From an uncultured Pseudomonadota bacterium (lineage in GTDB: Bacteria > Pseudomonadota > Gammaproteobacteria > Steroidobacterales > Steroidobacteraceae), in assembly GCA_903884235.1 (NCBI GenBank), contig CAISEB010000006.1, forward strand, positions 1-64,000: a DNA stretch of 64,000 nucleotides, given 5' to 3'. Each line of letters starts with the position of its first letter. The first letter of the stretch is position 1. Shown piece by piece: positions 8,120 through 30,377 of this stretch. The notes beneath the pieces were generated by a model. It saw only the letters and a program-made list of their open reading frames with translations. It did no database searches and was not told where the DNA came from. The translations under genes and the position numbers were made by a program.

Positions 8120-8144
8120 TGTGAAAAATTTGAACGATATTCAA
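8120..8144. promoter_or_regulatory. Candidate TetR operator between TetR-1 and cofC
   Basis: TGTGAAAAATTTGAACGA at 8120-8137 runs into the imperfect dyad TTGAACGATATTCAA at 8130-8144 (TTGAA, five-base centre, TTCAA). The same 18 bases and a more perfect version of the dyad occur at 30353-30377 between two divergent operons. An 18-base identity in two non-coding places, each beside a TetR-1/TetR-2-associated unit, is best explained as a shared operator or promoter-operator element. Confidence 0.65.
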
Positions 8145-8295
8145 GCGCTTGCAGAGCCGATCCGAGGGGTCTGCCCGCCTGGCGCCGGACGAGGGGAGTG
8201 CGAGTGAACGGCCCGTGCACCGAGGGGGATCCGCGAACTGCCGTGGCGGTGCCGCCAGCGGGCACCCGTACCCCATCGGGCGCCGGATTCCGGCG

Positions 8296-8967
8296 ATGAC
8301 GTCGGGCTGCTGGGCCCTCGTCCCGGTCAAGACCCGCGGCCTGTGCAAGAGCCGCCTGGCCGGGCGCCTTGCCGCCGACTCCAGACTGATCCTGGTGCGG
8401 GCGATGCTCGAGCGCGCGCTCGCGGCGCTGCGCGAGGCACGCCTCGTCGACCACATCGCGGTGGTCAGTCCCGAACGCGACACGGTGCCGTCTGACATCC
8501 TCGTGCTCGGCGATCCCGGCGGCGGGCTCAATCCGGCACTCGAAGCGGGCCGCGAGGCGCTGTTGCAGCGCGGGGCGACCGAGCTCGTCGTCCTGCCCGC
8601 GGATCTCCCGTTCGTCACCGCGGCCGACATCGACACGCTCGTCGAGAGCGGGCGGCGGGGCGGCTTCGCGCTCGCGACCGACGCGGCCGGGACCGGCACG
8701 AACGCCCTCTACGTGCGGCCCCCGGTGCCGTTCCGGTTCCAGTTCGGCCCCGGCAGCCGGTTCCTGCACATGGACGAAGCGGCCCGGGTCGGGCTCGGCG
8801 CCGAGCTGTTGCGGATCGGCGGTCTTGAATTCGACGTCGACGGCCCGTCCGAACTCGGCGAACTGCTCGCGCGGGACGCGCCCCGCTATCGTTCCGTTCC
8901 GCTGCGCACGCCTGATGGCGCCGCAGCGATATCCCTGCCCGTGACCGGAGAGACCGGCACTGGCTGA
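8296..8967 (+). CDS. cofC: F420 pathway guanylyltransferase CofC (phospholactate/phosphoglycerate type)
   Basis: Activates a three-carbon phosphoacid (2-phospholactate, phosphoenolpyruvate or 3-phosphoglycerate, depending on the organism) with GTP for transfer to the deazaflavin FO. The 223-residue product has the family N-terminus ALVPVKTRGLCKSRLAG, a nucleotide-binding VVLPADLPFVTAADI segment and GTNALYVRPP with FGPGSR further on. The ATG at 8296 was chosen because the motif begins seven residues later; its ribosome site is weak, and an in-frame extension to 8149 looks non-coding. gnd follows 51 bases downstream, then convergent cofD. The substrate specificity cannot be read from the sequence by eye. 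Confidence 0.88.
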   Translation: MTSGCWALVPVKTRGLCKSRLAGRLAADSRLILVRAMLERALAALREARLVDHIAVVSPERDTVPSDILVLGDPGGGLNPALEAGREALLQRGATELVVLPADLPFVTAADIDTLVESGRRGGFALATDAAGTGTNALYVRPPVPFRFQFGPGSRFLHMDEAARVGLGAELLRIGGLEFDVDGPSELGELLARDAPRYRSVPLRTPDGAAAISLPVTGETGTG

Positions 8968-9018
8968 TCCGACAGGCGGGTCCTTCCCGCCACCGTACTT
9001 CTGGAAGCGTGACGACCC

Positions 9019-10476
9019 ATGAACAACACCCCTGCTGACGTCGGCCTCATCGGACTTGCCGTGATGGGCGAGAACCTCGCCCTCAACATGGAGAGCAAGG
9101 GGTTCAGCGTCGCGGTCTACAACCGCACCGCGAGCAAGACGGCGTCCTTCCTCAGCGGTCGCGCGGCGGGCAAGAGGTTCATCGGCAGCGATACGCTCGC
9201 GGGCTTCGCGGCCTCGCTGTCGAAGCCGCGGAAGATCGTCATGCTCGTGAAGGCGGGCAGCGCGGTCGACGAGCTGATCGACCAGCTCGTGCCGCACCTC
9301 GATCCGGGTGACATCCTGATCGATGGTGGCAACAGCCTCTATACCGACACGATCCGACGCACCCACAAGGTGGAGTCGCTCGGCTTCCTGTACGTCGGCT
9401 CCGGCGTGTCCGGCGGCGAGGAGGGTGCGCTCCTCGGGCCTTCGCTGATGCCCGGTGGCAGCGCTGCCGCGTGGCCGCACATCAAGCCGATCTTCCAGGC
9501 GATCTGCGCGCGCACGCCTGAGGGCGAGGCGTGCTGCGACTGGATGGGCGAGGACGGCGCCGGCCACTTCGTGAAGATGGTCCACAACGGCATCGAATAC
9601 GGCGACATGCAGCTGATCTGCGAGACGTACGACCTCATGAAGCGTGGGCTCGGTCTCTCGAACGATCGCATGCACGAGGTGTTCTCGGCCTGGAACAAGG
9701 GTCCGCTCGACAGCTACCTGATCGAGATCACGCGTGACATCCTCGCTTATCGCGCCGAGGACGGCAGTGCCGTCGTCGACGTGATCCTCGATGCCGCTGG
9801 CCAGAAGGGCACGGGCAAGTGGACGGTAGGCGCGGCGCTCGATGACGGCATGCCGCTGACGCTCATCGGCGAGGCGGTGTTCGCGCGCTGCCTGTCGGCC
9901 TTGAAGGACGAGCGCGCGGCCGCCGCGAAGGTGATCAGGCCGTCGCTGCCGGTATTCGCCGGGGATGTCGATGCCTTCGTCGAGGACCTGCGCCAGGCGC
10001 TCTACGCCTCGAAGATCATCAGCTACGCACAGGGATACCAGTTGCTGAAGGCCGCGGCCCGCACGCACCACTGGAACCTCAACTTCGGGGGCATCGCGCT
10101 GACCTGGCGCGGCGGTTGCATCATCCGCTCGGCCTTCCTCGGCGACATCAAGAAGGCGTTCGATCGCAATCCTGCGCTCGGCAACCTGCTGCTCGATCCG
10201 TTCTTCAGCAAGATCATCGAGACCCACCAGGCGGCATGGCGGCGCGTGATCGTAGGCGCCGTGCAGCTCGGCATCCCGGTGCCATGCCTGTCCTCCGCGC
10301 TCGCCTACCTCGACGGCTACCGCTCCGAGCGGCTGCCGGCCAACCTGCTGCAGGCGCAGCGCGACTACTTCGGTGCACACAACTACGAGCGGGTCGATCG
10401 GCCCCGCGGCGAGATGTTCCACACCAACTGGACCGGACGCGGCGGCACGACCACCTCGCAGGCCTACGGCGTCTGA
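9019..10476 (+). CDS. gnd: 6-phosphogluconate dehydrogenase, decarboxylating
   Basis: Converts 6-phosphogluconate to ribulose 5-phosphate, normally reducing NADP. The 485-residue length is that of the long (E. coli-type) family. Visible are the dinucleotide motif GLIGLAVMGENLAL, the NRT triplet after strand two that reads the NADP phosphate, the substrate segment YVGSGVSGGEEGA, the catalytic Lys region GHFVKMVHNGIEYGDMQ, and ITLTWRGGCIIRS-like C-terminal segment. It lies between cofC and cofD, an unusual position for gnd. Because FGD (38171-39175) makes 6-phosphogluconolactone, the two enzymes could work in sequence. Confidence 0.95.
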   Translation: MNNTPADVGLIGLAVMGENLALNMESKGFSVAVYNRTASKTASFLSGRAAGKRFIGSDTLAGFAASLSKPRKIVMLVKAGSAVDELIDQLVPHLDPGDILIDGGNSLYTDTIRRTHKVESLGFLYVGSGVSGGEEGALLGPSLMPGGSAAAWPHIKPIFQAICARTPEGEACCDWMGEDGAGHFVKMVHNGIEYGDMQLICETYDLMKRGLGLSNDRMHEVFSAWNKGPLDSYLIEITRDILAYRAEDGSAVVDVILDAAGQKGTGKWTVGAALDDGMPLTLIGEAVFARCLSALKDERAAAAKVIRPSLPVFAGDVDAFVEDLRQALYASKIISYAQGYQLLKAAARTHHWNLNFGGIALTWRGGCIIRSAFLGDIKKAFDRNPALGNLLLDPFFSKIIETHQAAWRRVIVGAVQLGIPVPCLSSALAYLDGYRSERLPANLLQAQRDYFGAHNYERVDRPRGEMFHTNWTGRGGTTTSQAYGV

Positions 10477-10482
10477 GTTCCG

Positions 10483-11418
10483 TCAGCGCCTGAGTTCGCG
10501 CGCGCGCTCGAGCACGAAGCTCGCGAGCCGCGTGCGATCGGCCAGCGTCTTCATCAGCGTCGCGGTCGCGAACGTGGTGACGGGCAGCGTCGCGGCTGCA
10601 TCACGATCGACATCGTCGACCACGAGCGCATCGATCAGCCCCGCGTAGTGTGCCGCGATGGCGGCGGGCGAGGACTCGATTCCGAGCTCGGCCATGATCT
10701 TCGCGGTGGGTCCCTTGACCGCGTTCGTCCCGATCAGCGGACTCACGGCAATCGCCGGCACGCGCCGTGCCACGAGCGCGGCACGCAGCGACGGGACCGC
10801 GAGCAGCGGATCGACGCTGAGGTACGGGTTCGACGGGCACAGCACGATCGCCTCGAGACCGGGGTCGGCGAACGCGGCCAGCACCTCGGGCGTGGCATGG
10901 GCGCGATCGGCCCCGTCGAATCGGATCGCGCGCAGCCTGGGTTCGCAGCGGCGGCGAACGAAGTACTCCTGGAAGGCGAGGTCGCCCGCATCGGTCGTGA
11001 CCCGCGTCGCGACCGGGTCGTCCGTCATCGGCAGGATCGCTGCACGGATGCCGAACCGGCTCGCGATACCGGCGATGACCGACGTGAGGCGCTCCCCGGC
11101 GCGCAGGCGCTGCGTGCGGTGCAGGTGCAGGGCCGTGTCGGCATCCCCGAGCCTGAACCACGTCTCGCCGCCGAGCGCTTCGGTCACGCGCATCATCGTC
11201 CAGGTCTCGTCGCGCCGACCCCAGCCCTGTTCGCGGTGCTCGAGATCGCCGAGCGTGTAGAGCGCCGTGTCGAGATCGGGACAGATCCGCAGGCCCAGGT
11301 GGTCGAAGTCATCGCCGGTGTTCACGGCGATCCGCAGTGCATCGGGCGGCAGCACCCGATACAGGCCGAGCGCGAGCTTTGCGCCGCCAACGCCACCGGA
11401 CAGGGCAAGCACACTCAT
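10483..11418 (-). CDS. cofD: 2-phospho-L-lactate transferase CofD (F420 pathway)
   Basis: Transfers the phosphoacid from the GDP/GMP-activated intermediate made by CofC to FO, giving F420-0 or its dehydro form. The 311-residue product has the diagnostic N-terminus LSGGVGGAKLALGLYRVLP, NTGDDFDHLGLRICPDLDT, the CPSNPYLSVDPLL segment and SPLIGTNAVKGPTAKIMAE. All are conserved CofD landmarks. It is convergent with gnd with only six bases between the stop codons and no visible terminator, so the cofC-gnd and cofD transcripts probably overlap at their 3' ends. Confidence 0.92.
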   Translation of the reverse strand: MSVLALSGGVGGAKLALGLYRVLPPDALRIAVNTGDDFDHLGLRICPDLDTALYTLGDLEHREQGWGRRDETWTMMRVTEALGGETWFRLGDADTALHLHRTQRLRAGERLTSVIAGIASRFGIRAAILPMTDDPVATRVTTDAGDLAFQEYFVRRRCEPRLRAIRFDGADRAHATPEVLAAFADPGLEAIVLCPSNPYLSVDPLLAVPSLRAALVARRVPAIAVSPLIGTNAVKGPTAKIMAELGIESSPAAIAAHYAGLIDALVVDDVDRDAAATLPVTTFATATLMKTLADRTRLASFVLERARELRR

Positions 11419-11764
11419 GGGCGAATCAGGACTCCTGGGCGGGGTTCGGACGGGACGGGCATCGGGGGCCGGGAGTGTCCGCTGGATCCGCGCTCGCGTT
11501 CAAGCGAATCCGGTCCGGCAACTCGTGCGCCTGGACGGGCCGTACGCCGGGATTCTCGCAATTTAAAATCAGTCATGTCGGTTTCTTTTGGCGGGTGGCG
11601 CTCTATATACTGGTCGCACAACGCCCCGGCGGTCGCTGCCGGAGTCGCAATGCAGCGTGGCATCGTTCCGCTACCGGGGGTCGCCGGCCGGGTCGACAGC
11701 CGTGCGCGAGTGCGTGCAGGTCCGGGTCCGAGTCCGGGATGCCGCCACCGTCGAGGGGGAATGC
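11419..11764. promoter_or_regulatory. Divergent intergenic region, cofD and hydratase operon promoters
   Basis: This 346-base gap separates cofD (minus) from the MaoC/thiolase operon (plus). An AT-richer patch around 11560-11605 includes CTCTATATACTGG, which has a good -10-like TATACT; the matching -35 is weak (TTTCTT about 18 bases upstream). No dyad like the one at 8130 or 30363 is present. The assignment as promoter is by position and base composition only. Confidence 0.35.
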
Positions 11765-12220
11765 GTGAGTAGCGTCGTTGATCCAGGATTGCTGTCGCTG
11801 ATCGGCAAGGCAGCCGCGCCGCAGACCCAGCTCGTCACCCGTCGGGACATCCGCAAGTATTCGGTCGCGACCGCCCAGCGACAGCGCAAGTACCTCGATG
11901 GCGACGAAGCACCGCCGATGTTCCACGTGGCCCTGTTCTGGCCCGTGCTGCCCCTCGATGAGCTCAGCGCGAACGGCGTTGCGATCGATCCGATGTTTCC
12001 CGACATCCCGGGTCGTCGACCGATGGCTGGCGGCCTCAAGATCGACTTCCACCGCCCGCTGAAGCCCGGTGACGAGCTGACCGCGACGCGTATGTTGACC
12101 AACATCTACTCGAAGCAGGGCTCGAACGGATCGCTCATCTTTGTCGAGGTCACGATGACCGTCATCGATTCGGCGGGCGAGATCGTGCTGACCGAGAAGA
12201 CCACGCGGATCATGAAATGA
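11765..12220 (+). CDS. MaoC-type hot-dog protein, FAS1-like dehydratase N-domain
   Basis: A 151-residue protein of the N-terminal MaoC/FAS1-like dehydratase domain family (PPMFHVALFWPV, GLKIDFHRPLKPGDELTA, TMTVIDSAGEIVLTEK). In steroid side-chain degradation such a subunit (ChsH1/ChsH2 type) pairs with a second MaoC half to hydrate an enoyl-CoA. The start is a GTG at 11765 preceded by GAGGGGGA; the longer in-frame extension to 11588 lacks coding character. The next gene starts inside its stop codon (ATGA overlap), supporting a heteromeric hydratase. Confidence 0.75.
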   Translation: MSSVVDPGLLSLIGKAAAPQTQLVTRRDIRKYSVATAQRQRKYLDGDEAPPMFHVALFWPVLPLDELSANGVAIDPMFPDIPGRRPMAGGLKIDFHRPLKPGDELTATRMLTNIYSKQGSNGSLIFVEVTMTVIDSAGEIVLTEKTTRIMK

Positions 12221-12642
12221 GTGCGGTTCCAGATCTGAAGCTGCTCGTCCCGGGACAAGCACTTCCGGTGCGCACGTTCCAGTGCGAGCCGGTGCAGTTG
12301 TTCCTGTACAACGCGGCGCTGTGGAATGCCGACCGGATCCATTTCGATCATCCGCACACGACGCTGACCGAAGGCTATCCGGCACTGGTCATGGCCGGCC
12401 CTCTGCTCGGCGACTGGCTCGCGCAGGCGGCGAACGAGTGGGCGGGGGATGCAGGGTTCTTGCGTTCCATCGAATATTCCAACCGTCGCGCCTGCTACGT
12501 TGGTGATGTGCTGCGCAGCGTCGGTCAGGTGAGGTCCGTCGATACCGAGTCTGGCGATGTCGTGCTCGAGCTCGCGATCGTCAATCAGCGGGACGAGGTC
12601 GCACTCCCGGGTACGGCCGTCGTTCGCCTGGCGAGGGCCTGA
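12217..12642 (+). CDS. MaoC-like enoyl-CoA hydratase subunit
   Basis: A 141-residue hot-dog-fold protein. The segment NADRIHFDHPHTT...EGYPALVMAGPLLGDWL is the hydratase-2 type motif, with Asp/His in the position of the catalytic pair. Alone it is the catalytic half; the preceding gene supplies the other hot-dog domain, as in two-chain MaoC hydratases. The start overlaps the upstream stop (ATGA), and the downstream thiolase starts two bases after its stop. A likely step is hydration of an unsaturated side-chain acyl-CoA before retro-aldol cleavage by the next two gene products. Confidence 0.8.
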   Translation: MSAVPDLKLLVPGQALPVRTFQCEPVQLFLYNAALWNADRIHFDHPHTTLTEGYPALVMAGPLLGDWLAQAANEWAGDAGFLRSIEYSNRRACYVGDVLRSVGQVRSVDTESGDVVLELAIVNQRDEVALPGTAVVRLARA

Positions 12643-12644
12643 CC

Positions 12645-13820
12645 GTGCCGAGGACACTTCGCGGCAGGACGGCGATTGTCGGCGCGGCTGACACCGACGT
12701 CGGCGTCATCAAGACCATGGGCGCGACGCAGCTGTGCATCGAGGCCATCATCCGTGCGCTCGCGGACGCAGGAATCACCAAGGACGAGATCGACGGACTC
12801 GTCACTTGCAACTCCATGGCCGAGCCGTACCTGTATCACGCGGAAACGGTCGCCGAGTACTTGCAGATCTTCCCGAAATACTGCGTCAGCGTGGGCGCCG
12901 GAGGCGGCACCACGTTCACCGCGCTGCATCAGGCGGCATCCGCGATCGAGAGCGGCATCTGCAACACGGTCGTGATCGCGATGGCCGACAGTCTGCGATC
13001 CGGCATGACCCGCGAGAAAGCGCTCGCGATGCAGTCTTCGACCGGCCATCCGCAGTTCGAGCGACCCTACGGACTCCCCGTGCCGGCCTACTACGCGCTG
13101 ATCGCGCAGGCCCACATGCATGAGTACGGCACGACGCCGGAACACCTGGCGGCGGTCGCAGTCGCGACGCGCCAGCACGCGATGCGCAACCCCAACGCGC
13201 AGATGCGTACGCCGATCACGGTCGACGACGTGCTCTCCAGCAGGATGATCGCGGATCCGTTGCACCTGCTCGACTGCTCGCTGGTCTCCGATGGCGGCGC
13301 CGCCGTCGTGCTCACGTCCCGTGAACGCGCACGGGATTTCCGTCGCCGACCCGTCTTCCTGCTCGGTGTCGGCGAGGGTCATGGACACGAGCACATCAGT
13401 GCCGCGCGCAGTCTGACGACGTCCGCCGCAGTCGAAGCTGGCCAGCGCGCATACGCCATGGCGGGCGTCGGCCCGAAGGACATGGACTTCGCGCAGCTCT
13501 ACGACTGCTTTACGCCGGTCGTCCTGATCGAACTCGAGGATCTCGGCTTCTGTGCTAAAGGGGAAGCGGGACCGTTCGTGGCGGCCGGCCACACGGCACC
13601 AGGTGGCTCGTTCCCGGTCAATACGCATGGCGGCCTGCTCTCGCACACGCATCCGGGCAATCCGGGTTCGATGTTCGCGCTGACCGAAACCGTCCTGCAG
13701 CTGCGCGGTGACGCCGGAGAGCGCCAGCTCGACAAGGCGGGCCTTGCGCTCGTGCACGCGCAGGGCGGGATCATGTCGAGCCACTGCTCGATCATCCTCG
13801 GGCGCGAGGACGCCGCATGA
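12645..13820 (+). CDS. Thiolase-fold lipid-transfer protein, Ltp2/SCP-x-like
   Basis: A 391-residue thiolase-superfamily protein of the non-decarboxylating lipid-transfer type (RTAIVGAADTDVG at the start, SDGGAAVVLTSRERA, FAQLYDCFTPVVLIELEDLGF, NTHGGLLSHTHPG, HAQGGIMSSHCSIILG). These lack the usual catalytic Cys of degradative thiolases and, with a DUF35 partner, act as aldolases that release a short acyl-CoA from 17-hydroxy-steroid-CoA-like substrates. The start is a GTG at 12645. The DUF35 gene that follows overlaps the stop by four bases, which fits the known two-protein complex. The substrate here is inferred, not shown. Confidence 0.82.
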   Translation: MPRTLRGRTAIVGAADTDVGVIKTMGATQLCIEAIIRALADAGITKDEIDGLVTCNSMAEPYLYHAETVAEYLQIFPKYCVSVGAGGGTTFTALHQAASAIESGICNTVVIAMADSLRSGMTREKALAMQSSTGHPQFERPYGLPVPAYYALIAQAHMHEYGTTPEHLAAVAVATRQHAMRNPNAQMRTPITVDDVLSSRMIADPLHLLDCSLVSDGGAAVVLTSRERARDFRRRPVFLLGVGEGHGHEHISAARSLTTSAAVEAGQRAYAMAGVGPKDMDFAQLYDCFTPVVLIELEDLGFCAKGEAGPFVAAGHTAPGGSFPVNTHGGLLSHTHPGNPGSMFALTETVLQLRGDAGERQLDKAGLALVHAQGGIMSSHCSIILGREDAA

Positions 13821-14230
13821 CGGACATCCTCGCGAAGCCAGTTCCGGTCGCCTCGCCGGAGACGGCGGAATACTGGTCTGGCGCGAAGCGCCACGAGCTC
13901 CTGATCCAGCACTGCAGCTCTTGCGGGCATCACCAGTTCTATCCGCGCGTGCTCTGCACGGCATGTTCGGGTCGCATGCTGACCTGGGTCCGGGCGAGCG
14001 GCCGCGGCACGATCAGAAGCTACACGGTCGTCCGCCGCCCGGTGTCGGAGGCGTACGCACCGGACGTGCCCTACGTGGTCGCGCTGGTCGCACTCGCCGA
14101 GGGCCCCTCGATGATGAGCCGCATCGTCGCCATCGACCCGGAGGCGGTGAGGATTGGGCTGGCGGTGGAAGTGACGTTCCAGGATTGGACGGACGCGGTG
14201 TCGGTGCCGGTGTTCCGTGCGGCCGGCTGA
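13817..14230 (+). CDS. DUF35 zinc-ribbon/OB-fold protein, partner of the thiolase
   Basis: A 137-residue protein with a rubredoxin-like zinc ribbon (CSSCGHHQFYPRVLCTACSG, four Cys) followed by an OB-fold (GRGTIRSYTVVRRP...PYVVALVALAEGPSMMSRI). The fold is known to stabilise and complete the active site of lipid-transfer thiolases in aldolase complexes and to support acyl-CoA binding. The gene overlaps the thiolase stop codon (ATGA). It is the last gene of the four-gene operon that starts at 11765. Confidence 0.85.
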   Translation: MTDILAKPVPVASPETAEYWSGAKRHELLIQHCSSCGHHQFYPRVLCTACSGRMLTWVRASGRGTIRSYTVVRRPVSEAYAPDVPYVVALVALAEGPSMMSRIVAIDPEAVRIGLAVEVTFQDWTDAVSVPVFRAAG

Positions 14231-14399
14231 CGGCAATCGCGCGGCGCTGCAGCATTCGGCGGGGCCGGTGTTGCGGGCACGCGACGATCTTCGTCGTTCG
14301 TGTTGCAGTGCACTCGCCCGGGAACCGGCAATTGCGGGCATTCCCCAGCGATCAAGCGGTCGAACCCGTTTTTCCGAGGAATAAAAAAAACCGTCAGGC

Positions 14400-14429
14400 T
14401 TGTCTAAATTCGCTGACCGGGGGTAGGAT
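14400..14429 (+). promoter_or_regulatory. Putative sigma-70-type promoter of the TonB receptor gene
   Basis: TTGTCT at 14400-14405 and TAGGAT at 14424-14429 are separated by 18 bases, about 95 bases before the ATG of the receptor gene. The surrounding 14231-14523 gap holds no coding frame; an A-run (AATAAAAAAAACC) lies just upstream. Recognition is by eye only. Confidence 0.35.
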
Positions 14430-14523
14430 CGGCAGCAAGGTGGATCGGAGTGGCATGAAGCCCACGATCGCTTGGACGATTTAAGAACGAAATTCAGATC
14501 AACGTTTGGAAGGGGGGTTCTGC

Positions 14524-16968: not shown

Positions 16969-16990
16969 TCGCAGCCCGTCAGGCTGATCG

Positions 16991-17021
16991 AAGGGCCGGC
17001 GAAAGCCGGCCTTTCCTTTTT
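16991..17021. terminator. Rho-independent terminator
   Basis: GGCCGGC, a GAAA loop and GCCGGCC form the core of a ten-pair stem, flanked by AAG/TTT and followed by CCTTTTT. It lies 22 bases after the receptor stop and before the convergent TetR gene, so it ends the receptor transcript and may slow the opposite one. Confidence 0.85.
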
Positions 17022-17055
17022 GGGCGCCTGGAATGGAGCTGCGCCGGCGCCGCCG

Positions 17056-20496: not shown

Positions 20497-21660
20497 CTAG
20501 AACGAGCGTGGGAGCCCGAGTCCCTCTGCGATCATGTTGCGCGCCATCTCGTTGCTGATCGGTCCGATCATCAGCAGGCGCGCATCGCGCCAGTAGCGCT
20601 GCATGTCGGTCTCGGCCGAGTAACCCATGCCGCCGAGGATCGAGATGCCGAGGTCCGCGGACTTCACGGCGTACTCCGAGACCAGCGCCTTGGTCATCGC
20701 GGCCTCCTGAGCGCAGCGCCGCCCGGATGCCTGCAGCCAGGCCGTGTTGAACAGCATGAGCTCGGCCTGCTTCTGCATCATCGCGATTTCCGCAACGTAG
20801 TGCTGCAGCGACTGGAATTCGCCGATCAGCTTGCCGAACGCACGTCGCTGCTTCATGTATGACAGCGCGTCCTCGAGCACGCCGTCGATCATGCCGAGGC
20901 ACATCGCGGAATTCATGATGCGCTCGCTGTTGAGCGTGCTGGTGGTGTCCTTCCAGGCCTTGCCCGCCTCGCCGAGCAGCAGGTTGTCCGGAACGAACAC
21001 CCGATCGAGATGCACCGCGCACGAATTGAGCGCGCGCATGCCGAGCTTGTCGAGCGGCGTGATCCGCATCCGCTCGCTTTCCCGCGGCACGAAGAACAGC
21101 GACACGCCGTCGGAGCGCTTCTGGACGTTCCGTTCGGAGCGGGCCATCAGCAGCAGGTAGTCCGCCGTATCCGCGGTCGTGCTCCAGGTCTTCTCCCCGG
21201 TCAGCTCCCAGCCGCCGGGGACCTTCTCGGCGTGCGTGCGCATCGCGCCGAGCACGTCCGTGCCACCTCCGGGTTCCGTGAACGCCATGGCCGTGCGCAG
21301 CCGGCCCGCGGCCATTTCCGGGAGGAAGCGTCGCTTCTGCTCGTCCGTGCCGTGGAGCGCGATCGCTCGCGTACCGGAGAAGGCGGTGATGCCCCAGATC
21401 CAGCCGAGACCGGCGAGCGTGCGGGCAATCTCGCGCACGAACACCGCCTGCTTGACGATGTCGCCGCCGAGGCCGCCGTACTCCTCGTCGACCCCGAGGC
21501 CCGTGAAGCCTGCGTCCACGAACTTGGTCCAGAGCTCCGCCGGGTACTGGTGCTCGCGTCGCTCGAGCATCCGGCACCAGTCCTTCGGCAGTTCCCGCTC
21601 GACCCATCGCCGGACGGTGTCGCGGAACAGCTGCGTTTCTTCGTCGAGCGAGAAGTCCAT
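20497..21660 (-). CDS. Acyl-CoA dehydrogenase
   Basis: A 387-residue FAD enzyme making an alpha,beta-unsaturated acyl-CoA. It has the N-terminal helical domain, the FAD/substrate segment AFTEPGGGTDV near 135, RRAFGKLIGEFQ and the C-terminal GGMGYSAETDMQRYWRDAR in which the Glu corresponds to the usual catalytic base. It converges with the acyl-CoA ligase gene with 21 bases between stops and no visible terminator. It is likely to act in the same acyl-CoA pathway. Confidence 0.9.
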   Translation of the reverse strand: MDFSLDEETQLFRDTVRRWVERELPKDWCRMLERREHQYPAELWTKFVDAGFTGLGVDEEYGGLGGDIVKQAVFVREIARTLAGLGWIWGITAFSGTRAIALHGTDEQKRRFLPEMAAGRLRTAMAFTEPGGGTDVLGAMRTHAEKVPGGWELTGEKTWSTTADTADYLLLMARSERNVQKRSDGVSLFFVPRESERMRITPLDKLGMRALNSCAVHLDRVFVPDNLLLGEAGKAWKDTTSTLNSERIMNSAMCLGMIDGVLEDALSYMKQRRAFGKLIGEFQSLQHYVAEIAMMQKQAELMLFNTAWLQASGRRCAQEAAMTKALVSEYAVKSADLGISILGGMGYSAETDMQRYWRDARLLMIGPISNEMARNMIAEGLGLPRSF

Positions 21661-21761
21661 CGGTGCGCCTCGGGTCCGGCCGGATTTGGTCGTTTGATCA
21701 AATCAAGCTAGCAGAAACGGCGAACGCGGTGTACTGGCACGGCCGCAGGCGCCGCCTGAGG

Positions 21762-22478: not shown

Positions 22479-22719
22479 TGGTGCGATGCTTTCCCTGCGA
22501 TGCCGAACCCGATATTCGCACGCGCCGACGCCGGGTGCATCTGCGAGGTCGGTCCGGGCGGCCGCCTACTGCGGTGCAGCAGGCAATTCCGCGCTCGGTC
22601 TCGAATTGGGCGAACGATCAATTCATGGGTGGCGCCCGTGGCCAGCGCCACGGGGCAGTGCAATACTAGGCGGCGTCTTGCGGCACCGGGCCGCGCACAC
22701 TTCCACATGGAGCGATGAC

Positions 22720-23127: not shown

Positions 23128-23136
23128 TTCCACCGG

Positions 23137-23166
23137 GCCGGTGCGCTCCCTGAGGGTGGCACCGGC
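23137..23166 (+). other. Intercistronic hairpin
   Basis: GCCGGTGC and GCACCGGC pair around a 14-base loop just after the first SnoaL-like gene. There is no T-run. It is like the other intercistronic hairpins at 18658, 32953 and 38126. Confidence 0.5.
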
Positions 23167-23228
23167 TGTTCCTCCAGCGCGGCCGAGCGGGGTGGCTCCG
23201 CCTCGTACAGGCCGCAGAGGCTCAATGC

Positions 23229-23795
23229 ATGACTGATTCCCACGACGCGCGCGCTTTCGAAGCGCGCATCCGCCGTCTCGAGGACCGATTCGAGATTGGC
23301 GAGCTGATCGCGCGCTACGGGCTCGTGATGGACAATCGCGACATCGCGACAATGCCCGCGCTGTTCACCACGGACGCCAAGGTTCGCTCCAGCGATGGAA
23401 TGATGGACTCGGATGGCCGCGACGCCGTGTGCGCTATGTATCGGGGTCGACTGGAAGTGCTGGGACCCAGCAACCACGTCACCCATGACCGCATCATCAC
23501 GTTCGACGACGCCAACGCGGACGTGGCGACGGGTCTGGTGCTCTCCCACGCGGAGATGTGTCGCAAGGGCGTCGCGATGGTCGCGGCCATCCGCTACGAG
23601 GACGCCTATCGCCGCGAGGAAGGGCGCTGGCGCTTTGCGGCGCGCACGCTACTGTTCATGTACTTCGTGCGCAGCGATGAGTACATCGATGCACTCGGCC
23701 CCGGCGTCGCGCTTCGCAACCGGGTGCTGCGCGATGCGCGAGCCGCCGACTGGCCGGAAAAGCTCCAGACCTGGCGGGACTTCTACCGTGCCTGA
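23229..23795 (+). CDS. SnoaL-like (NTF2-fold) protein
   Basis: A 188-residue protein with the NTF2-like pattern IGELIARYGLVMDNRDIATMPALFTTDAKV and a later RWRFAARTLLF strand. It is longer than the first copy by a C-terminal helical extension. A GTG start of the alpha/beta hydrolase gene lies inside its last eight bases, so the two are translationally coupled. A role as isomerase or hydratase for a polycyclic or terpenoid intermediate is possible but not shown. Confidence 0.8.
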   Translation: MTDSHDARAFEARIRRLEDRFEIGELIARYGLVMDNRDIATMPALFTTDAKVRSSDGMMDSDGRDAVCAMYRGRLEVLGPSNHVTHDRIITFDDANADVATGLVLSHAEMCRKGVAMVAAIRYEDAYRREEGRWRFAARTLLFMYFVRSDEYIDALGPGVALRNRVLRDARAADWPEKLQTWRDFYRA

Positions 23796-24693
23796 GGGCA
23801 GGATCGCCCCCCGGGGCGAGTTGCCCTCGAGCCACGCCGCACCCCTGCAGGCGCGGACCTTCATCAATCGCACCGGCCTTCGCCTACGTGGCGACGAGTG
23901 GGGCCCTGAACGGGCCCCCACGGTCGTCCTGATGCACGGAGGTGGCCAGACGCGCCGGTCCTGGAGCGGTGCCGCGCGCGAGTTCGCCGCCACGGGCTAC
24001 CGCGTCATCAACCTCGATGCACGCGGGCACGGCGAGAGCGAGTGGCCTGCCGACGGGCGCTACACGCTCGATGCCCTGTGCGACGACATCGAGGCGGTCA
24101 TTCCCCCCGATTCCGGGCCCGTGGTCCTCGTCGGAGCATCCATGGGTGGCGTCGCCGCGCTGCATTTCGTCGCCACAGGCCGGGCCCGAAGGGTCGATGC
24201 GATCGTGATGGTCGACATCGTGCCGCGCGTCGAACAGCAAGGATCGGATCGGATCCAGGCGTTCATGCGTGCGCACCCCGGTGGCTTCGCCAGCATCGAT
24301 GAGGCCGCGGACGCAGTGGCCGAGTACTACCCCGAGCGGCCGCGCCCTAAGGACTCGAGCGGGCTCGAGGCGAACCTGCGGCGTCGCAACGACGGCCGGT
24401 ACTACTGGCACTGGGATCCCCGGCTGATCGACGGCCCGCACGCGCTCGAACCACCGGACTTCGGCGATCCCCTGCTGCAGGCCGCGCGTGTCGTACGGAT
24501 TCCCGTGCTCATCGTGCGTGGCCTGCGCAGCGACGTTGTCAGCGATGCCGGCATCGAGGAATTCCGCGGCGCTGTTCCGCACCTCGAGGTCTGCGAAATC
24601 CAGCAAGCCGGCCACATGGTGGCCGGCGACCGCAACGATGCGTTCAATGCCGGTACGCTGGAATTCCTGCGCCGGCACGTCCCGGTGCCCTGA
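23788..24693 (+). CDS. Alpha/beta-fold hydrolase
   Basis: A 301-residue hydrolase. The oxyanion segment MHGGGQTRRSW, the nucleophile elbow GASMGG, a late acidic residue in RGLRSDVVSD and the catalytic His in QAGHMV make the triad. It resembles epoxide hydrolase and C-C bond hydrolase relatives; which one is not clear. The start is the GTG at 23788 overlapping the previous gene's stop; a longer frame to 23413 is antiparallel in usage to that gene and not credible. Confidence 0.85.
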   Translation: MPEGRIAPRGELPSSHAAPLQARTFINRTGLRLRGDEWGPERAPTVVLMHGGGQTRRSWSGAAREFAATGYRVINLDARGHGESEWPADGRYTLDALCDDIEAVIPPDSGPVVLVGASMGGVAALHFVATGRARRVDAIVMVDIVPRVEQQGSDRIQAFMRAHPGGFASIDEAADAVAEYYPERPRPKDSSGLEANLRRRNDGRYYWHWDPRLIDGPHALEPPDFGDPLLQAARVVRIPVLIVRGLRSDVVSDAGIEEFRGAVPHLEVCEIQQAGHMVAGDRNDAFNAGTLEFLRRHVPVP

Positions 24694-24712
24694 AACGGCT
24701 CCGGCCGCGACC

Positions 24713-25873
24713 TCAGCGGCGTTGGTCGAAACGGCGCCCCAGCATCGCGCCGGCGATGTTGACCTTCTGGATGTCGATCGCGCCGCCGGCAATGCCCCAG
24801 CCCCAGGCATCGCGCATGCGCCGTTCGGCGGGGTATTGCTTCGAATAACCGTATGCGCCCATCAACTGCATCGCATTGCCGGTCACAGTCCGCGCGATTT
24901 CATTCGCGAAGCACTTCGCGACGGAGGAGTGGAGCGGACTTGGCAGTCCGTGCTCTGCGTTGGATGCCGCGCGGTGAATCAGCAGGCGTGCCGCCTCGAC
25001 CTGCATCTGCATCTCCGCCAGCTTGATCTGGACTCCCTGGAATTCCATGATCGGCTTGCCGAACTGCTTGCGCTCCTTGACGTAATCGACGACGTCGGCG
25101 AGCGCACCCGAGGCCTGGGCAAGTGCCATCGTTGCATTTCCGCAGCGCTCGAGGTCGAAGGCCTCCATCAGCTTCTTGAAGCCACCCGCCGGTACGACGA
25201 TGTGGTGGGCGGGGACCTTCACGTTGTCGAAGAAAAGGTCCGCCGAGGGAACGCCGCGGAACCCCATCAGGGATTCGGGTGCGCCGAAGCTGAGCCCGGG
25301 TGTGCCGTTCTCGACATACACCGCACCGATGCCGGCCGCGCCTGGCGCATCCGAGATGCGGCAGTAGACGACGTATCCATCGGCGTGGCCGCCACCGGAG
25401 CACCAGCGCTTATTGCCGTTCAGGATCACGTGGTCGCCGAGGACTTCCGCGCGCGTCTGCAGGTCCGTGAGCGCCGTGCCCGCCTGCGGTTCGGACATCG
25501 CGATCGCGACGATCACCTCGCCCCGACACACGGCCGGCACCACGGCCTCGACGAGCTTCTGCTGCCCGAACTTCTCGATCGCCCTGACCGGGCCGACGCA
25601 CGACTCGAACACCGGAAAGGCAATCGCCGCCGAGATCTGCGCGAACTCCTCGAGCACCAGCAGCGCCTCGAGATTGCCGAGCCCGAGCCCACCCAGGCGT
25701 TCCGGAACGTTGATGCCGAGGAAGCCGAGCTCGGCGAACTGCTTGATCAGCGCCCGTGAGGGCGGGTGGCCGGTCTTCTCGATCTCCTCCGCGAGCGGAG
25801 GCAGCGCGCTGCGTGCGAATCGCCTCGCGGTCTCGACCAGTTCTCGCTGCTCGTCGCTCAGTTGGAAATCCAT
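24713..25873 (-). CDS. Acyl-CoA dehydrogenase, catalytic Glu replaced by Gln
   Basis: A 386-residue acyl-CoA dehydrogenase-fold protein with AMSEPQAGTAL near 130, RKQFGKPIMEFQ and a C-terminal QLMGAYGYSKQYP. In medium-chain enzymes the base is the Glu of TEYP; here the same position is Gln. Some family members use a Glu elsewhere, so loss of activity does not follow. It is the last gene of the minus-strand operon beginning with the hydratase at 30258, 57 bases after the amidohydrolase. Confidence 0.88.
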   Translation of the reverse strand: MDFQLSDEQRELVETARRFARSALPPLAEEIEKTGHPPSRALIKQFAELGFLGINVPERLGGLGLGNLEALLVLEEFAQISAAIAFPVFESCVGPVRAIEKFGQQKLVEAVVPAVCRGEVIVAIAMSEPQAGTALTDLQTRAEVLGDHVILNGNKRWCSGGGHADGYVVYCRISDAPGAAGIGAVYVENGTPGLSFGAPESLMGFRGVPSADLFFDNVKVPAHHIVVPAGGFKKLMEAFDLERCGNATMALAQASGALADVVDYVKERKQFGKPIMEFQGVQIKLAEMQMQVEAARLLIHRAASNAEHGLPSPLHSSVAKCFANEIARTVTGNAMQLMGAYGYSKQYPAERRMRDAWGWGIAGGAIDIQKVNIAGAMLGRRFDQRR

Positions 25874-25930
25874 GGATCAGTTCCTAGTCGTTGGGCGGTA
25901 GCGCCGCCCGTATGTAAGTCCGGCCAGCCG

Positions 25931-26923
25931 TCAACGGCTCAGTCGGTAGAAATTCATCGCCGTGCCGCCGAGCAGTGCCAGCCGCTCGATCCGTGGGCGT
26001 CCTGAAGTCACGCGCTTGAAGGCGTTCCAGAGCACGCCATACGAGCACGAGGCCCGGTCCATCGGGAAGTTGCTCTCGAGCATGCAGCGCGAGGCCCCGA
26101 AAAGTTCGATGCAGGCATCGAAGTACGGTCGGAACGCATCGGAGAGCTCCACAGATCCGGGTGGCGCGGGGCGCTTGTGCCAGCCGAAGCCCGCCGACGT
26201 CATCGTCTGGCCGCCGAGCTTCACGAACACGTTCGGGCGGGCGGCGACGGTCTCGAGGCCACGACGCCAGTCGTCTAGGACTGCCTGTCGGCGTCCAGCG
26301 TAGGGACCGACGCCGAGCGGCCCACCCATGTGATCGAGGACGATCCGTGCCTCCGGGAAGTCACCGGCGAGGCTGGCCAGTTCCCCGAACTGCGCGGGGT
26401 ACAACCAGGCGTCGAACGCAAGGTCGCGGCGTATAAGCTCCGAGAAACCCGCCCGGAAATCCGCGCGTCCCATCAGTCCCGCCGGCGGGTGGGTGTGCGA
26501 CGGACGGATCTGCTCGCTCGCGTCCCAGGCGGTCGCGTAGCGCACGGCACGCACTCGCCGACTCGCCGCGAGGTGCGCGTCAAGGACTTCGCCAACTGCT
26601 GCACCGAGCGTGAGGTCGGCGAACGCGACGATGCCCGCCGCGAGTCTCGGGCCGTCGGCAATCCTGTCCGTGCCACGCGCGACCTCCTCCACCCATTCGG
26701 TCTCGCCGACCGGGCGAAGGGGTTCAGGTCCGTCCGTGCGATAATGCTGCAGGCATTCCACGAAGACCGTGTGTTCGATCCGGTGGCCGGCGAACTCCCC
26801 GACGAAATCATCGGCGAGGTAGCGGCTGCCTGGATATTCCCAGAGGTGGTGATGCGGATCGCACAGCGGGATGTCCGGCTCGAGGGCCGACTCCGCCGTC
26901 AAGGCGCGCCAGGCATCGCTCAC
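25931..26923 (-). CDS. Amidohydrolase-2 family (metal-dependent hydrolase)
   Basis: A 330-residue TIM-barrel hydrolase. The metal motif DPHHHLWEY (HxH) lies near residue 20, followed by IVLDHMGGP and a late ESNFPMD segment with the acid residue of the family. Relatives are lactonases and decarboxylases of the pyrone-dicarboxylate lactonase type. The start is a GTG at 26923 that overlaps the stop of TetR-2 (GTGA), so it is co-translated. It may open a lactone or cleave a ring-derived intermediate in this pathway. Confidence 0.82.
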   Translation of the reverse strand: MSDAWRALTAESALEPDIPLCDPHHHLWEYPGSRYLADDFVGEFAGHRIEHTVFVECLQHYRTDGPEPLRPVGETEWVEEVARGTDRIADGPRLAAGIVAFADLTLGAAVGEVLDAHLAASRRVRAVRYATAWDASEQIRPSHTHPPAGLMGRADFRAGFSELIRRDLAFDAWLYPAQFGELASLAGDFPEARIVLDHMGGPLGVGPYAGRRQAVLDDWRRGLETVAARPNVFVKLGGQTMTSAGFGWHKRPAPPGSVELSDAFRPYFDACIELFGASRCMLESNFPMDRASCSYGVLWNAFKRVTSGRPRIERLALLGGTAMNFYRLSR

Positions 26924-27513
26924 GACGCAACCTCTGCTGAAATCCGCTGGGCACGCTCGAGCATCTCCTCGCGGAACATCGCCCGGGCGCGCCTGAGGCT
27001 GAGGCCCTCGTCGAAGTAGCAGGCCGTGCGCAGTCCGACGAGCATCGCGTATGCAACCTCGGCGCGGGTCCTCGCATCGGTGCGGCTCGCGGCCGTGGGT
27101 TCGAACAGCTCGAGAAGGTAGGTCTTGCAGAACTGGTCGATCGCGACCTTGCCTCGCTTCAGCTCCTCGTCGTGCACTGCCGCCGCGAAGCACTGGAGCA
27201 TGAAGCCGATCTCGGACTTGTCGTCGGAGGTGCCACCGAAGAACAGGTCCGCGAGCAAGTCGATCTTCCGCCCCGGGCCCTCGTGCCGGAAGCTGCTCAT
27301 GCGCTCGATGATGCGTTCGACGATGTAGGCGAAGTAGCTCTGCAGGATCGCGTCGAGCCCCGGGAAGTAATACAGCAGATGACTCGGGGACATCCCGGCC
27401 GCGCGCGCGACATCGGCGAGCGTGGTCTTGGTATAGCCCTTCTCGATGACGCACGCGTGCAGTGCGTTGAAGATCGCCCGGCGTCGCTCGCCGGCCCGTC
27501 CAGCCTGGTGCAA
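26920..27513 (-). CDS. TetR-family regulator TetR-2, paralogue of TetR-1
   Basis: A 197-residue repressor inside the minus-strand acyl-CoA operon. Its helix-turn-helix reads TTLADVARAAGMSPSHLLYYF, differing by a single residue in the turn from TetR-1, and the ligand domain also aligns (IDLLADLFFGG against IDLLAELFFAG; AYAMLVGLRT against AYAMLVGMRT). Two repressors with the same recognition helix probably bind the same operators, at 8130 and 30363. It may act as the feedback regulator of its own operon. Confidence 0.85.
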   Translation of the reverse strand: MHQAGRAGERRRAIFNALHACVIEKGYTKTTLADVARAAGMSPSHLLYYFPGLDAILQSYFAYIVERIIERMSSFRHEGPGRKIDLLADLFFGGTSDDKSEIGFMLQCFAAAVHDEELKRGKVAIDQFCKTYLLELFEPTAASRTDARTRAEVAYAMLVGLRTACYFDEGLSLRRARAMFREEMLERAQRISAEVAS

Positions 27514-27560
27514 GGTCGCGCTCCTTACGGTGGTCGGATTCGCCCGGTGCCGTCCTGATC

Positions 27561-28313
27561 TCAGAGCTTGGATGACTCGCCGCCGTCGATCACGAGCACG
27601 GCGCCGGTCACGAAGTTCGACTTCGGCGAGGCCAGGTAGCAGACCATCGGCCCTATTTCCTCATCGACGCCCATGCGCCGCGCGGGGATCTTCTTCAGCC
27701 GCATCGCCAGGATCTCCGGCGACTCGAGCACGGCCTTCTGCGCGCTCGTCTCGAACGCGCCCGGCGCGATCGCATTCACCTGGACACCCTTGCTGGCCCA
27801 CTCGGCGGCGAGCGCCTTCGTGAACTGCAGCAGCGCGCCCTTGGACGAGGAGTACGCGACGAGGATCGGCTTGCCGAGGATGCCCGAGGTCGAGGCGATG
27901 TTGATGATCTTGCCGGAACGCTGCGGGATCATGTGGCGGCCGGCGGCGCGCGCGAGCGTAGCGGGTGCAGCGACGTTGACCGTGAACACCTCGTGCCAGA
28001 CGCTCTCGGCCTGGTCCAGGAAAGCACCGGCCGGCGCGATGCCCGCGTTGTTCACGACGATGTCGAGCCGCCCGAATGCGGCCACGGCCTCGTCGGCCAG
28101 CGCGCCGACCGCGGCGAGATCGCGCATGTCGCAGGGGCGGCCCTTGATGCGACCGGGATACCTGGCCTCGAGCTCGGCGAGATCGTCGGCCGAGCGCGCC
28201 GCGGCGAGCACGGACACACCCTGCTCGGCGAGGGCGACGGCCATCGCGCGGCCGAGTCCACGACTCGCGCCGGTGACGATCGCGACCTTGCCGTCGAGTT
28301 CAAGGTCCATCAT
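27561..28313 (-). CDS. Short-chain dehydrogenase/reductase
   Basis: A 250-residue classical SDR: TGASRGLGRAMA cofactor motif, basic residue after strand two (AAARSADD) which favours NADP, NNAG, catalytic NIASTSG and YSSSKGA. Its ATG overlaps the stop of the preceding acyl-CoA dehydrogenase (ATGA). In a beta-oxidation-like operon it probably oxidises a 3-hydroxyacyl-CoA or an alicyclic hydroxyl group. Confidence 0.9.
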   Translation of the reverse strand: MMDLELDGKVAIVTGASRGLGRAMAVALAEQGVSVLAAARSADDLAELEARYPGRIKGRPCDMRDLAAVGALADEAVAAFGRLDIVVNNAGIAPAGAFLDQAESVWHEVFTVNVAAPATLARAAGRHMIPQRSGKIINIASTSGILGKPILVAYSSSKGALLQFTKALAAEWASKGVQVNAIAPGAFETSAQKAVLESPEILAMRLKKIPARRMGVDEEIGPMVCYLASPKSNFVTGAVLVIDGGESSKL

Positions 28314-29440
28314 CGCACTTCCTCCGTCAGCTGCTTGGCGATGCCGAGGCGCAGCACCTCGGATGCCCCCTCGTAGATGCGCATCGGCCGTGCCTGGCGG
28401 TACAGGCGCTCGATCTTCGAATTCCGGATCAGGCCGAAGCGGCCCATCATCTGCACGCAGCGATCGACGATCTTGCAGGCCGCCTCGGTCGCGGCGAGCT
28501 TCGCCATCGACGAGTGGGGCAGGGCGGCTGCCGCGTCGTGCACGGCGTAGGAGGCCGCGCGGTAGGTCAGCAGCTGCGCCATTTCGAGCTCGGTCCAGCT
28601 GTCGGCCAGCATCTGCGCGACGGGGCCGAGCTTCGCGAGCGGACGGCCGAACTGGATGCGGGTGCGGGTGTGGCGCACGGCTTCCTCGAGGGCGGCACGC
28701 GCAAGGCCGCACGCGGCGCCGGCCACCGAGACGCGGAACACCGCGAGCGTGGCGAGCACGAGATCGAGGCCGCGACCCGGTTCGCCAAGACGCGCGCTCG
28801 CCGGCAGCTCCACATTGCGGAAGCGCAGCTCCGCGAGCACGTGCGGCGCCATGATCACGGGTGTGGGCGAAGTCGCCAAGCCCTTGACGGATGCCGGCAC
28901 GAGCACCATCGAGTAGCCGGCCTGCTCCTTCGCGAACGTCAGGTAGAAGTCCGCGGCGCCGCCGTTCGAGATGAACGACTTCGATCCGTTGAGCTTGAGT
29001 ATCCCGTCGGCCTCGGTGAGCTCGGTGGCGACTCGCTTGAGGTCGGAGCCCACGTCCTCCTCGGTCAGCGCAAGCGCGCCGAGCGCTTCGGCCTTCGCGA
29101 TCTTCGGCAGCCACTCGGCGCGCTGCGCCTCGGAGCCACCGACCGAGATCGCGTAGCTGCCGATGCCCTGTAGCGCGAACAGCGAGTCGAGGTGCGACGA
29201 GGTGCCCATGAGAATCTCGCGTACGAGGCAGATCGCGAGCGGGTCCGGCCGCTCGAACCTGCCGCCGTAGGCGCTCGGCACCATCAGGTCGCTCAGGCCG
29301 CTTTGCCGCAGCGCAGCAAGAACGCCCGGGTGCAGCTCGCTCATCTCGTCGGCTTGGGACGCGATCGGTTCCACGGCGCGGGCCAGATCCCTGGCTTGCC
29401 CCTGGATGGCGAGGTATTTCGGTTCGAGGTCGAAGTTCAT
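28310..29440 (-). CDS. Acyl-CoA dehydrogenase, unusual catalytic position
   Basis: A 376-residue acyl-CoA dehydrogenase: ALTEEDVGSDLKR near 125, RIQFGRPLAKLGP, and a C-terminal MMGRFGLIRNSKIERLYRQ with RIYEGASEV. The residue matching the usual Glu base is Asn. The protein could use a Glu from another helix, as isovaleryl-type enzymes do. The ATG at 29440 was chosen for AAGGA eight bases upstream; the frame extends to 29785 but that part is opposite the crotonase gene's coding sense. Confidence 0.88.
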   Translation of the reverse strand: MNFDLEPKYLAIQGQARDLARAVEPIASQADEMSELHPGVLAALRQSGLSDLMVPSAYGGRFERPDPLAICLVREILMGTSSHLDSLFALQGIGSYAISVGGSEAQRAEWLPKIAKAEALGALALTEEDVGSDLKRVATELTEADGILKLNGSKSFISNGGAADFYLTFAKEQAGYSMVLVPASVKGLATSPTPVIMAPHVLAELRFRNVELPASARLGEPGRGLDLVLATLAVFRVSVAGAACGLARAALEEAVRHTRTRIQFGRPLAKLGPVAQMLADSWTELEMAQLLTYRAASYAVHDAAAALPHSSMAKLAATEAACKIVDRCVQMMGRFGLIRNSKIERLYRQARPMRIYEGASEVLRLGIAKQLTEEVR

Positions 29441-29481
29441 GCGGGTCGTCCTTGCAGTCGATGCGGCGCCTTGGCGTCGGG

Positions 29482-30258
29482 TCAGGCGTTCTTCTTCTTG
29501 CGGCCCTCGAACTGGGGCTTGCGCTTCTCCATGAAGGCGGTCGCGCCTTCGATCATGTCCTTGGAGCCGATCGCCTGCACCAGCATGCCGAGGCTGGTCT
29601 GATAGTTGTCGCGGGCTTGGTTCCACCACAGGTTCGAGCTGATCTTGGCGATCTCGAGGTAGCGGGGGCTCATGTCCAGCAGCTGGTCCGCCCAGCGCGT
29701 GACTTCGGCCTCGAGCTCCTCCGGGGCCACCACCGCGTTGATCCAGCCGAGTTCGAGCGCTTCCTTCGCCGGGTAGCGCTTGCACAGGAACGCCACCTCC
29801 TTCGCGCGCTTCTCGCCGATGCTCATCGATAGGAAGTTGGTGCCGCCGAGCACGGGAGCACTGCCGATACGTACGCCGGTCTGCCCGAACGTCGCCTTTT
29901 CGGACGCGATCGCGAGGTCGCAGGCGATCACCAGTTCGTTGCCGCCGCCCGCGGCGGCGCCATTCACCGCGGCGATCACCGGACGCGGGCTCATGCGGAT
30001 CGCTTCGTACAGGTGCAGCGATCCGTAGAACATGCTGCGCAGGGCCTCGGCATTGGGGTTGCTGAGGTTGGCGAGGTAGCCACCCGCGCAGAACGCCTTA
30101 CCGGTCCCGGTCAGGACGATGACGCCCGCGTCCACCGAATCCTGGATCGCGGCGATCATTTCCTTCGCCATCGAGGCGTCGTAGGAGTTCATGCGCTCCG
30201 GCCGATTCAGCCGGATCCACGCCACTTCGCCGCGGCGTTCGACTTCGATATCAGACAT
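29482..30258 (-). CDS. Crotonase-family protein, MenB/BadI-like
   Basis: A 258-residue crotonase. The segment AAGGGNELVIACDLAIASEKATFGQTGVRIGS, followed by EKRAKEVAFLCKRYPAKEA and EKRKPQFEGR, is closer to naphthoate synthase and 2-ketocyclohexanecarboxyl-CoA hydrolase than to enoyl-CoA hydratases (only short parts are quoted as motifs GQTGVRIGS and CKRYPAKEA). Those enzymes make or break a carbon-carbon bond in a ring. A ring-opening role would suit the alicyclic context. AGGGGGAAG precedes the ATG. It is the first gene of a six-gene operon controlled from the 30353-30377 site. Confidence 0.85.
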   Translation of the reverse strand: MSDIEVERRGEVAWIRLNRPERMNSYDASMAKEMIAAIQDSVDAGVIVLTGTGKAFCAGGYLANLSNPNAEALRSMFYGSLHLYEAIRMSPRPVIAAVNGAAAGGGNELVIACDLAIASEKATFGQTGVRIGSAPVLGGTNFLSMSIGEKRAKEVAFLCKRYPAKEALELGWINAVVAPEELEAEVTRWADQLLDMSPRYLEIAKISSNLWWNQARDNYQTSLGMLVQAIGSKDMIEGATAFMEKRKPQFEGRKKKNA

Positions 30259-30352
30259 CGCTTCCCCCTGAAGACCGGTAACCGATCGTGACTCTAACTT
30301 GCGCGTGCCGCCGGCGGATTGCTCGGCGTGGCGCTTGACATTCCCCATAGTC

Positions 30353-30377
30353 TGTGAAAAATTTGAACGAAGTTCAA
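30353..30377. promoter_or_regulatory. Candidate TetR operator between two divergent operons
   Basis: TGTGAAAAATTTGAACGA at 30353-30370 is identical to 8120-8137; it continues into the dyad TTGAACGAAGTTCAA at 30363-30377, in which TTGAAC and GTTCAA are perfect six-base arms. The site lies 95 bases upstream of the crotonase gene (minus) and 271 bases upstream of the split-barrel gene (plus), so one repressor could control both directions. Confidence 0.7.

Follow-up and report, generated by a model that had tools for sequence, protein, structure and literature searches.

F420 is a rare redox cofactor, and we came across few published accounts of how its synthesis is controlled in bacteria. In the main text of a 2021 FEMS review the string 'transcriptional regulat' does not occur (PMC8498797), and among the matches listed from the open full-text literature, with subscription papers and preprints outside its range, no paper deals with control of F420 synthesis by a TetR protein. 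The nearest described counterpart is MftR of Mycobacterium smegmatis, likewise a TetR protein at redox-cofactor genes, which represses the mycofactocin gene cluster and is released by long-chain acyl-CoA (PMC8728441). KstR of mycobacteria is a TetR repressor of lipid catabolism with the operator TnnAACnnGTTnnA, which has a 2-bp centre (PMC1995591). For BCG_2177c / Rv2160A of M. bovis BCG, a TetR mutant with altered expression of a PPOX-class F420-dependent enzyme was reported; 'fbi' does not occur in the main text, and we saw there no description of control of F420 synthesis or of a common operator (PMC9301340). Here we analysed a window of 64,000 nucleotides from an uncultured member of the Steroidobacteraceae (contig CAISEB010000006.1), in which a palindromic dyad lies at two promoters next to F420 genes and the genes of two paralogous TetR proteins, TetR-1 and TetR-2. 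We consider it likely, with good confidence, that the paralogues repress both promoters through this common dyad and that a metabolite of the pathway induces catabolism and F420 supply together.

A preliminary description of the window, made from the letters alone, had drawn attention to an 18-mer, TGTGAAAAATTTGAACGA, which was confirmed at 8120-8137 and 30353-30370 and is absent from the rest of the window on both strands. Each copy leads into a dyad: operator 1, TTGAACGATATTCAA, is one half-site base off perfect and lies between TetR-1 and cofC-gnd; operator 2, TTGAACGAAGTTCAA, is perfect and lies between a six-gene acyl-CoA operon containing TetR-2 and a divergent eight-gene operon with cofGH, fgd and cofE (Table 1). 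Family searches place cofC, gnd, cofD, cofGH, fgd and cofE above curated cut-offs, and the make-up of the two divergent operons with six and eight genes was confirmed. The hexamer AAAAAT adjoins the dyad at both sites; the common 18-mer is therefore composed of the -10 region and the first part of the operator, and the former view of it as an operator holds for the dyad part only.

The comparison with the described systems shows both likeness and difference. The cofactor of MftR is mycofactocin and its operator is T-N2-GGCA-N5-TGCC-N2-A (PMC8728441), and with 21.9 bits for TetR-1 and 21.8 for the other TetR both proteins stay below the cut-off of the MftR model TIGR03968 (224.9). The KstR operator is likewise an AAC/GTT palindrome that overlaps the -10 region and stands at the regulator's own promoter, but its centre has 2 bp instead of the 3 bp of the window dyads, which do not match the KstR motif, and its regulon is large, with 83 and 74 genes predicted in two species, compared with two sites here (PMC1995591). 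A likeness to BetI-type regulators is seen in the Pfam domain TetR_C_6, which TetR-2 passes and TetR-1 just misses (26.3 vs 27 bits), and the BetI equivalog models of NCBIfam gave scores below their cut-offs (31.7 and 47.7 vs 118; 31.3 and 45.8 vs 201.3).

Judged from the window alone, the dyad is not striking: a loose search for TTGAACNNNGTTCAA that allowed up to 2 mismatches found 2 places against 0.63 expected, 13 of 100 shuffles reach 2, and no exact dyad exists beyond those at 8130 and 30363. We rejected this as a measure of significance, and genome-wide and comparative tests were required. In the 4.12-Mb genome (G000) the exact dyad TTGAAY-N3-RTTCAA (TTGAAYNNNRTTCAA) occurs at 2 places, which are operators 1 and 2, with about 0.07 expected by base composition (P(>=2) about 0.002) and 0 places for the reversed control. 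Loosened patterns give background, with 23 places in G000 versus 12 for the reversed control at up to 2 mismatches, and 42 of 98 relatives match TTGAACGWWRTTCAA when up to 1 mismatch is allowed; the counts given here therefore use the exact dyad only. The 1 extra place that TTGAACGWWRTTCAA adds in G000 (C20:15453) was rejected as a third regulon member; it carries 1 mismatch, has no TTGACA ahead of it in the stretch inspected and is probably due to chance.

Over 17 genomes, picked because their TetR or F420 locus was already known, the exact dyad was found at 34 places versus 3 for the control. At TetR, acyl-CoA or cof loci we count 26 of these 34 (two being the same place in G005), and 8 lie elsewhere: 2 before TonB-receptor-like open reading frames (ORFs) named by eye (G255 C183, G005 C2), 4 within long reading frames (G262, G263, G265, G267) and 2 overlapping short frames only (G257 C117, G270). 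In 8 Halieaceae-type genomes the exact dyad occurs at 17 places, against 2 for the control.

Both operators are conserved in the genus. Close homologues of TetR-1 and TetR-2 occur in 3 of 15 genus genomes searched (G000, G005, G006), and the gene order TetR-1, cofC, gnd, cofD and, further on, the TetR-2 operon with the F420 operon opposite is kept in G005 and G006, where the dyads read TTGAACAACATTCAA ahead of cofC and TTGAACAAAGTTCAA between the divergent operons. A fourth genome, G255 (that of locus L081, titled Steroidobacteraceae, and by its coordinates identical to G170), carries operator 1 ahead of cofC-gnd and operator 2 between the enoyl-CoA hydratase (ECH) gene and PPOX-...-cofGH-fgd-cofE; its acyl-CoA operon ends with cofD. 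One TetR was detected in it; because the assembly is about 81% complete and the cluster lies on two contigs, another TetR may be absent from the assembly, and the junction is a presumed one. In the alignments of the four genomes only 17% and 23% of the intergenic columns are identical in all, and the -35 box and the dyad stand out as blocks; the best 27-column windows sit on the dyads, with 21 and 26 identical columns. The position of operator 2 is also kept in ECH-type loci of other genomes. The end of L064 and the start of L067 (C59 and C61 of G005) present the same ECH/operator place with slightly different sequence, which reflects either strain variants or a duplication in the assembly.

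The dyad is tied to a subfamily of TetR regulators. Among 60 TetR loci from named genomes (titles mostly of gammaproteobacteria or unplaced Proteobacteria, two genomes giving two loci each), 49 have an exact dyad in the 350 bp ahead of the TetR gene or operon, where the remaining sequence of these loci predicts 0.28. A putative palindromic operator at its own or a neighbouring promoter, by which a member of the TetR family is judged, is thus present in these 49. The other 11 loci comprise two with exact dyads at the corresponding promoters beyond the distance limits (L095, L120), four with variant dyads at the corresponding promoters (L093, L107, L116, L127), two cut by contig ends (L086, L138) and three, L121, L122 and the distant L137, with no dyad near TetR. 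An association that persists across such varied neighbourhoods would be difficult to account for if the TetR protein did not bind the dyad, which is very probably the operator of the subfamily. The overlap of the dyad with promoter elements would also suit another regulator or a mere conserved promoter element. Such an element would not be expected to track the TetR gene in 49 of 60 loci despite their differing neighbourhoods and promoter arrangements, nor to be missing near the cof genes in all 11 cof loci of family genomes without a TetR match, and we regard this explanation as highly improbable.

The 60 loci contain 13 other exact dyads, of which 11 stand upstream of a mapped gene, three times cofE. 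In Halieaceae-type loci the dyad precedes TonB-receptor-like genes near TetR (L100:3088, L105:3019, L115:3190, L119:3034, L124:3207), which suggests that substrate uptake belongs to the regulon there. In two further cases (L098:547, L112:3844) it stands, with TTGACA at 22 bp, ahead of an ORF that resembles by eye a glutathione transferase. The TetR loci L114 and L134, titled Planctomycetota and Flavobacteriaceae, group in the tree with Halieaceae and Porticoccaceae/Cellvibrionales and are probably misbinned contigs.

The two TetR proteins of the window are 54% identical and contain, as had been noticed before, the same stretch SPSHLLYY, which is unchanged in all six paralogues of the genus. 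In the recognition region M52, S55, H56, L57, Y59 and Y60 are invariant across 37 aligned sequences. Both proteins possess the TetR_N helix-turn-helix, and the AlphaFold model of TetR-1 has the all-helical TetR fold with 9 helices and a mean pLDDT of 86.3. It gave 222 matches in the PDB at E<=0.001, and most of the 50 matches listed are titled as TetR or other transcriptional regulators; these solved structures are distant TetR proteins only and offer no hint of the ligand. The identity of only 54% and the separate, supported clades of TetR-1 and TetR-2 in the tree would fit a division of labour, in which TetR-1 acts mainly at operator 1 and TetR-2 at operator 2 in response to different ligands, giving two regulons with an ancestral operator in common. 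The right half-sites point the same way, being ATTCAA in operator 1 and GTTCAA in operator 2 in G000, G005 and G006. However, the identical SPSHLLYY and the single consensus for all sites speak against it, and G255 holds both operators with one detected TetR and has GTTCAA in operator 1 as well. We regard a division of labour as a serious possibility to which we give clearly less than even weight.

At the promoters, repression by both paralogues through the common dyad would be well placed. Sigma-70-like promoters at the two sites lead into cofC-gnd and into the eight-gene operon. The rightward core at operator 2 has 10 of 12 consensus matches and is the 1 promoter found in a scan of the region, with 0.1 expected; before operator 1, TTGACT is replaced by TTGACA at the same offset in G005, G006 and G255. 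TTGACA ends 22-23 bp ahead of the dyad in 17 of 24 ECH/cof sites; in this count L064 and L067 stand for a single place in G005, and the TTGACA of L064 is taken at 22. The same spacing is found in 4 of 5 TonB-receptor sites, there at 22 bp, and in both sites before the glutathione-transferase-like ORF. At sites arranged in this way, a dimer bound to the dyad would occlude the -10 end together with the likely start point.

The link to F420 synthesis recurs outside the genus. A second lineage, represented by G257, G258, G260 and G262, has the dyad ahead of cofE, 147-234 bp upstream of the part of the gene that was matched; in G257 it sits between cofED and cofC-cofGH, 144 bp ahead of the latter. 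Of the 49 TetR-bearing genomes searched, 45 have CofGH; among the 212 members of the window's family that lack a TetR match, 61 have it. This comparison sets many families against one and is not phylogenetically independent. In the window's family altogether, 65 of 217 genomes carry CofGH, and F420 synthesis is thus common there.

Several observations weigh against a joint control of this kind. In other TetR-bearing genomes the dyad stands within 400 bp upstream of a cof gene in only 3 of 46 CofGH loci, and direct F420 control is thus a trait of particular lineages. Of the 65 CofGH-bearing genomes in the window's family, 61 gave no TetR match at E<=1e-25, and the majority of F420 producers there thus manage without this TetR. 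In the window itself, cofD has no exact dyad nearby. Within these limits, the comparison of genomes supports the proposal of a single regulon, with one operator that is common to both places, tied to the TetR subfamily and kept in G005, G006 and G255. The -10 hexamers are weak. Neither the four cofE sites nor any of the 35 TetR-promoter sites in Halieaceae-type loci have TTGACA at the usual offset, so that the operator also serves other promoter arrangements. A conserved TACAAT box near the PPOX start might be a second, uncontrolled promoter: TCCCTACAATAG at 30593-30604 (TCTCTACAATAG in G006), shortly ahead of this start, is kept in three genomes of the genus and possibly escapes operator 2.

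In the Halieaceae and Porticoccaceae the dyads stand at TetR and sometimes at a TonB-receptor promoter, and the CofGH loci examined have none closer than 400 bp to the cof genes; in these loci TetR thus appears not to act directly on the cof cluster. One might conclude that the dyad governs catabolic genes only and that cof genes downstream of it are incidental passengers of their operons. We think this unlikely, because cofC is the first gene behind the operator 1 promoter in G000, G005, G006 and G255, and because in the second lineage the dyad directly precedes cofE or, in G257, also separates the two cof transcription units.

Directly downstream of operator 2 lies an inverted repeat whose arms are kept in 4 of 4 aligned genomes, with a differing centre in G255. 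It folds as a hairpin with z-scores of only -1.0 to -1.5 and may act either as a further operator or as a hairpin at the 5' end of the cof transcript. The motif TG-T-TATCAA is a possible leftward promoter of the acyl-CoA operon; it is attractive in the genus, but G255 alters its bases and keeps the arms of the inverted repeat. A scan of 7000-40500 with Rfam gave 0 matches. As for the genes, the PPOX-type protein passes Pfam PNPOx_N and matches the F420-PPOX models of NCBIfam below cut-off only; the CxxCH protein (no family match) and the SnoaL-like ORF (frame 35071-35679) were named by eye. In another genome (L294:1925, G272:C9) an exact dyad stands just upstream of an acyl-CoA dehydrogenase gene that resembles, by eye, the window gene at 20497-21660, itself without a dyad.

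Table 1. Genes, operators and promoter-like elements of the two loci in the window
Feature	Position	Strand	Remarks
Enoyl-CoA hydratase/isomerase family gene	6524..7309	-	downstream of TetR-1; best NCBIfam matches below cut-offs
TetR-1	7358..7975	-	Pfam TetR_N 35.7 bits (cut-off 24)
Promoter-like core toward cofC	8102..8129	+	TTGACT 8102-8107, 16 bp, AAAAAT 8124-8129; flush with operator 1
Operator 1 (putative)	8130..8144	+	exact degenerate dyad; kept in G005, G006, G255
cofC	8296..8967	+	TIGR03552 139.8 bits (cut-off 105)
gnd, 6-phosphogluconate dehydrogenase	9019..10476	+	TIGR00873 730.6 bits (cut-off 426.7)
cofD	10483..11418	-	convergent with gnd; TIGR01819 297.3 bits (cut-off 257.45)
Six-gene acyl-CoA operon	24713..30258	-	ECH, acyl-CoA dehydrogenase (ACAD), short-chain dehydrogenase/reductase (SDR), TetR-2, amidohydrolase, ACAD; Pfam
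TetR-2, inside acyl-CoA operon	26920..27528 (start approximate)	-	Pfam TetR_N 37.4 (cut-off 24), TetR_C_6 36.0 bits
Promoter-like core, rightward	30335..30362	+	TTGACA 30335-30340, 16 bp, AAAAAT 30357-30362; flush with operator 2
Operator 2 (putative)	30363..30377	+	perfect dyad; kept in G005, G006, G255
Inverted repeat CTTGCT-N7-AGCAAG	30380..30398	.	directly downstream of operator 2
Rightward operon, first part	30648..35679	+	PPOX-type, acyl-CoA ligase, FAD oxidoreductase, CxxCH protein, SnoaL-like ORF
cofGH, bifunctional FO synthase	35717..38092	+	NF006687 1122.6 bits (cut-off 1018)
fgd, F420-dependent glucose-6-phosphate dehydrogenase	38171..39175	+	TIGR03554 492.5 bits (cut-off 420)
cofE	39176..39957 (start approximate; ORF opens 39010)	+	TIGR01916 282.7 bits (cut-off 180.65)

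From the arrangement of these elements, joint repression by the two TetR proteins could work as follows. TetR-1 and TetR-2 would both bind and repress at operators 1 and 2, and the bound dimers would mask the -10 end and the likely start point of the promoters of cofC-gnd and of PPOX...cofGH-fgd-cofE. The divergent acyl-CoA operon, about 105 bp from operator 2, would be repressed likewise, and with both promoters masked and this operon adjoining, the whole set would be kept off. When the pathway substrate appears, an intermediate, most likely an acyl-CoA in view of the neighbouring genes and the analogy with MftR, would release the repressors. Catabolic enzymes would then rise together with the synthesis of F420 and its reduction by FGD, and Gnd would take the FGD product onward. 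The substrate is a guess, since the NCBIfam matches to pathway enzymes fall far below cut-offs: as names of the pathway we rejected BadI (201.0 bits vs 467.6), cyclohexane-1-carbonyl-CoA dehydrogenase (218 and 183.2 vs 650) and 3-ketosteroid-delta-1-dehydrogenase (249.7 vs 789).

In a wider and more tentative reading, which in our estimate falls somewhat short of an even chance, this TetR subfamily makes F420 inducible in some gammaproteobacteria by an acyl-CoA, perhaps of an alicyclic or steroid-like acid. It would act as a joint switch of degradation, F420 synthesis and F420 reduction, in Halieaceae of uptake; the duplicated repressor would read two ligands, and cof genes would have been joined to the switch in at least two lineages.

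No TetR control of F420 genes of this kind had been known to the authors of the preliminary description. The parallel with MftR suggests that gating the supply of redox cofactors by acyl-CoA is a recurring design. Since the window brings together a likely regulator with its operator, the promoters and a pathway in which F420 may be used, the regulation of F420 and its function in these bacteria become directly testable. The bacterium may make F420 on demand for one particular food source.

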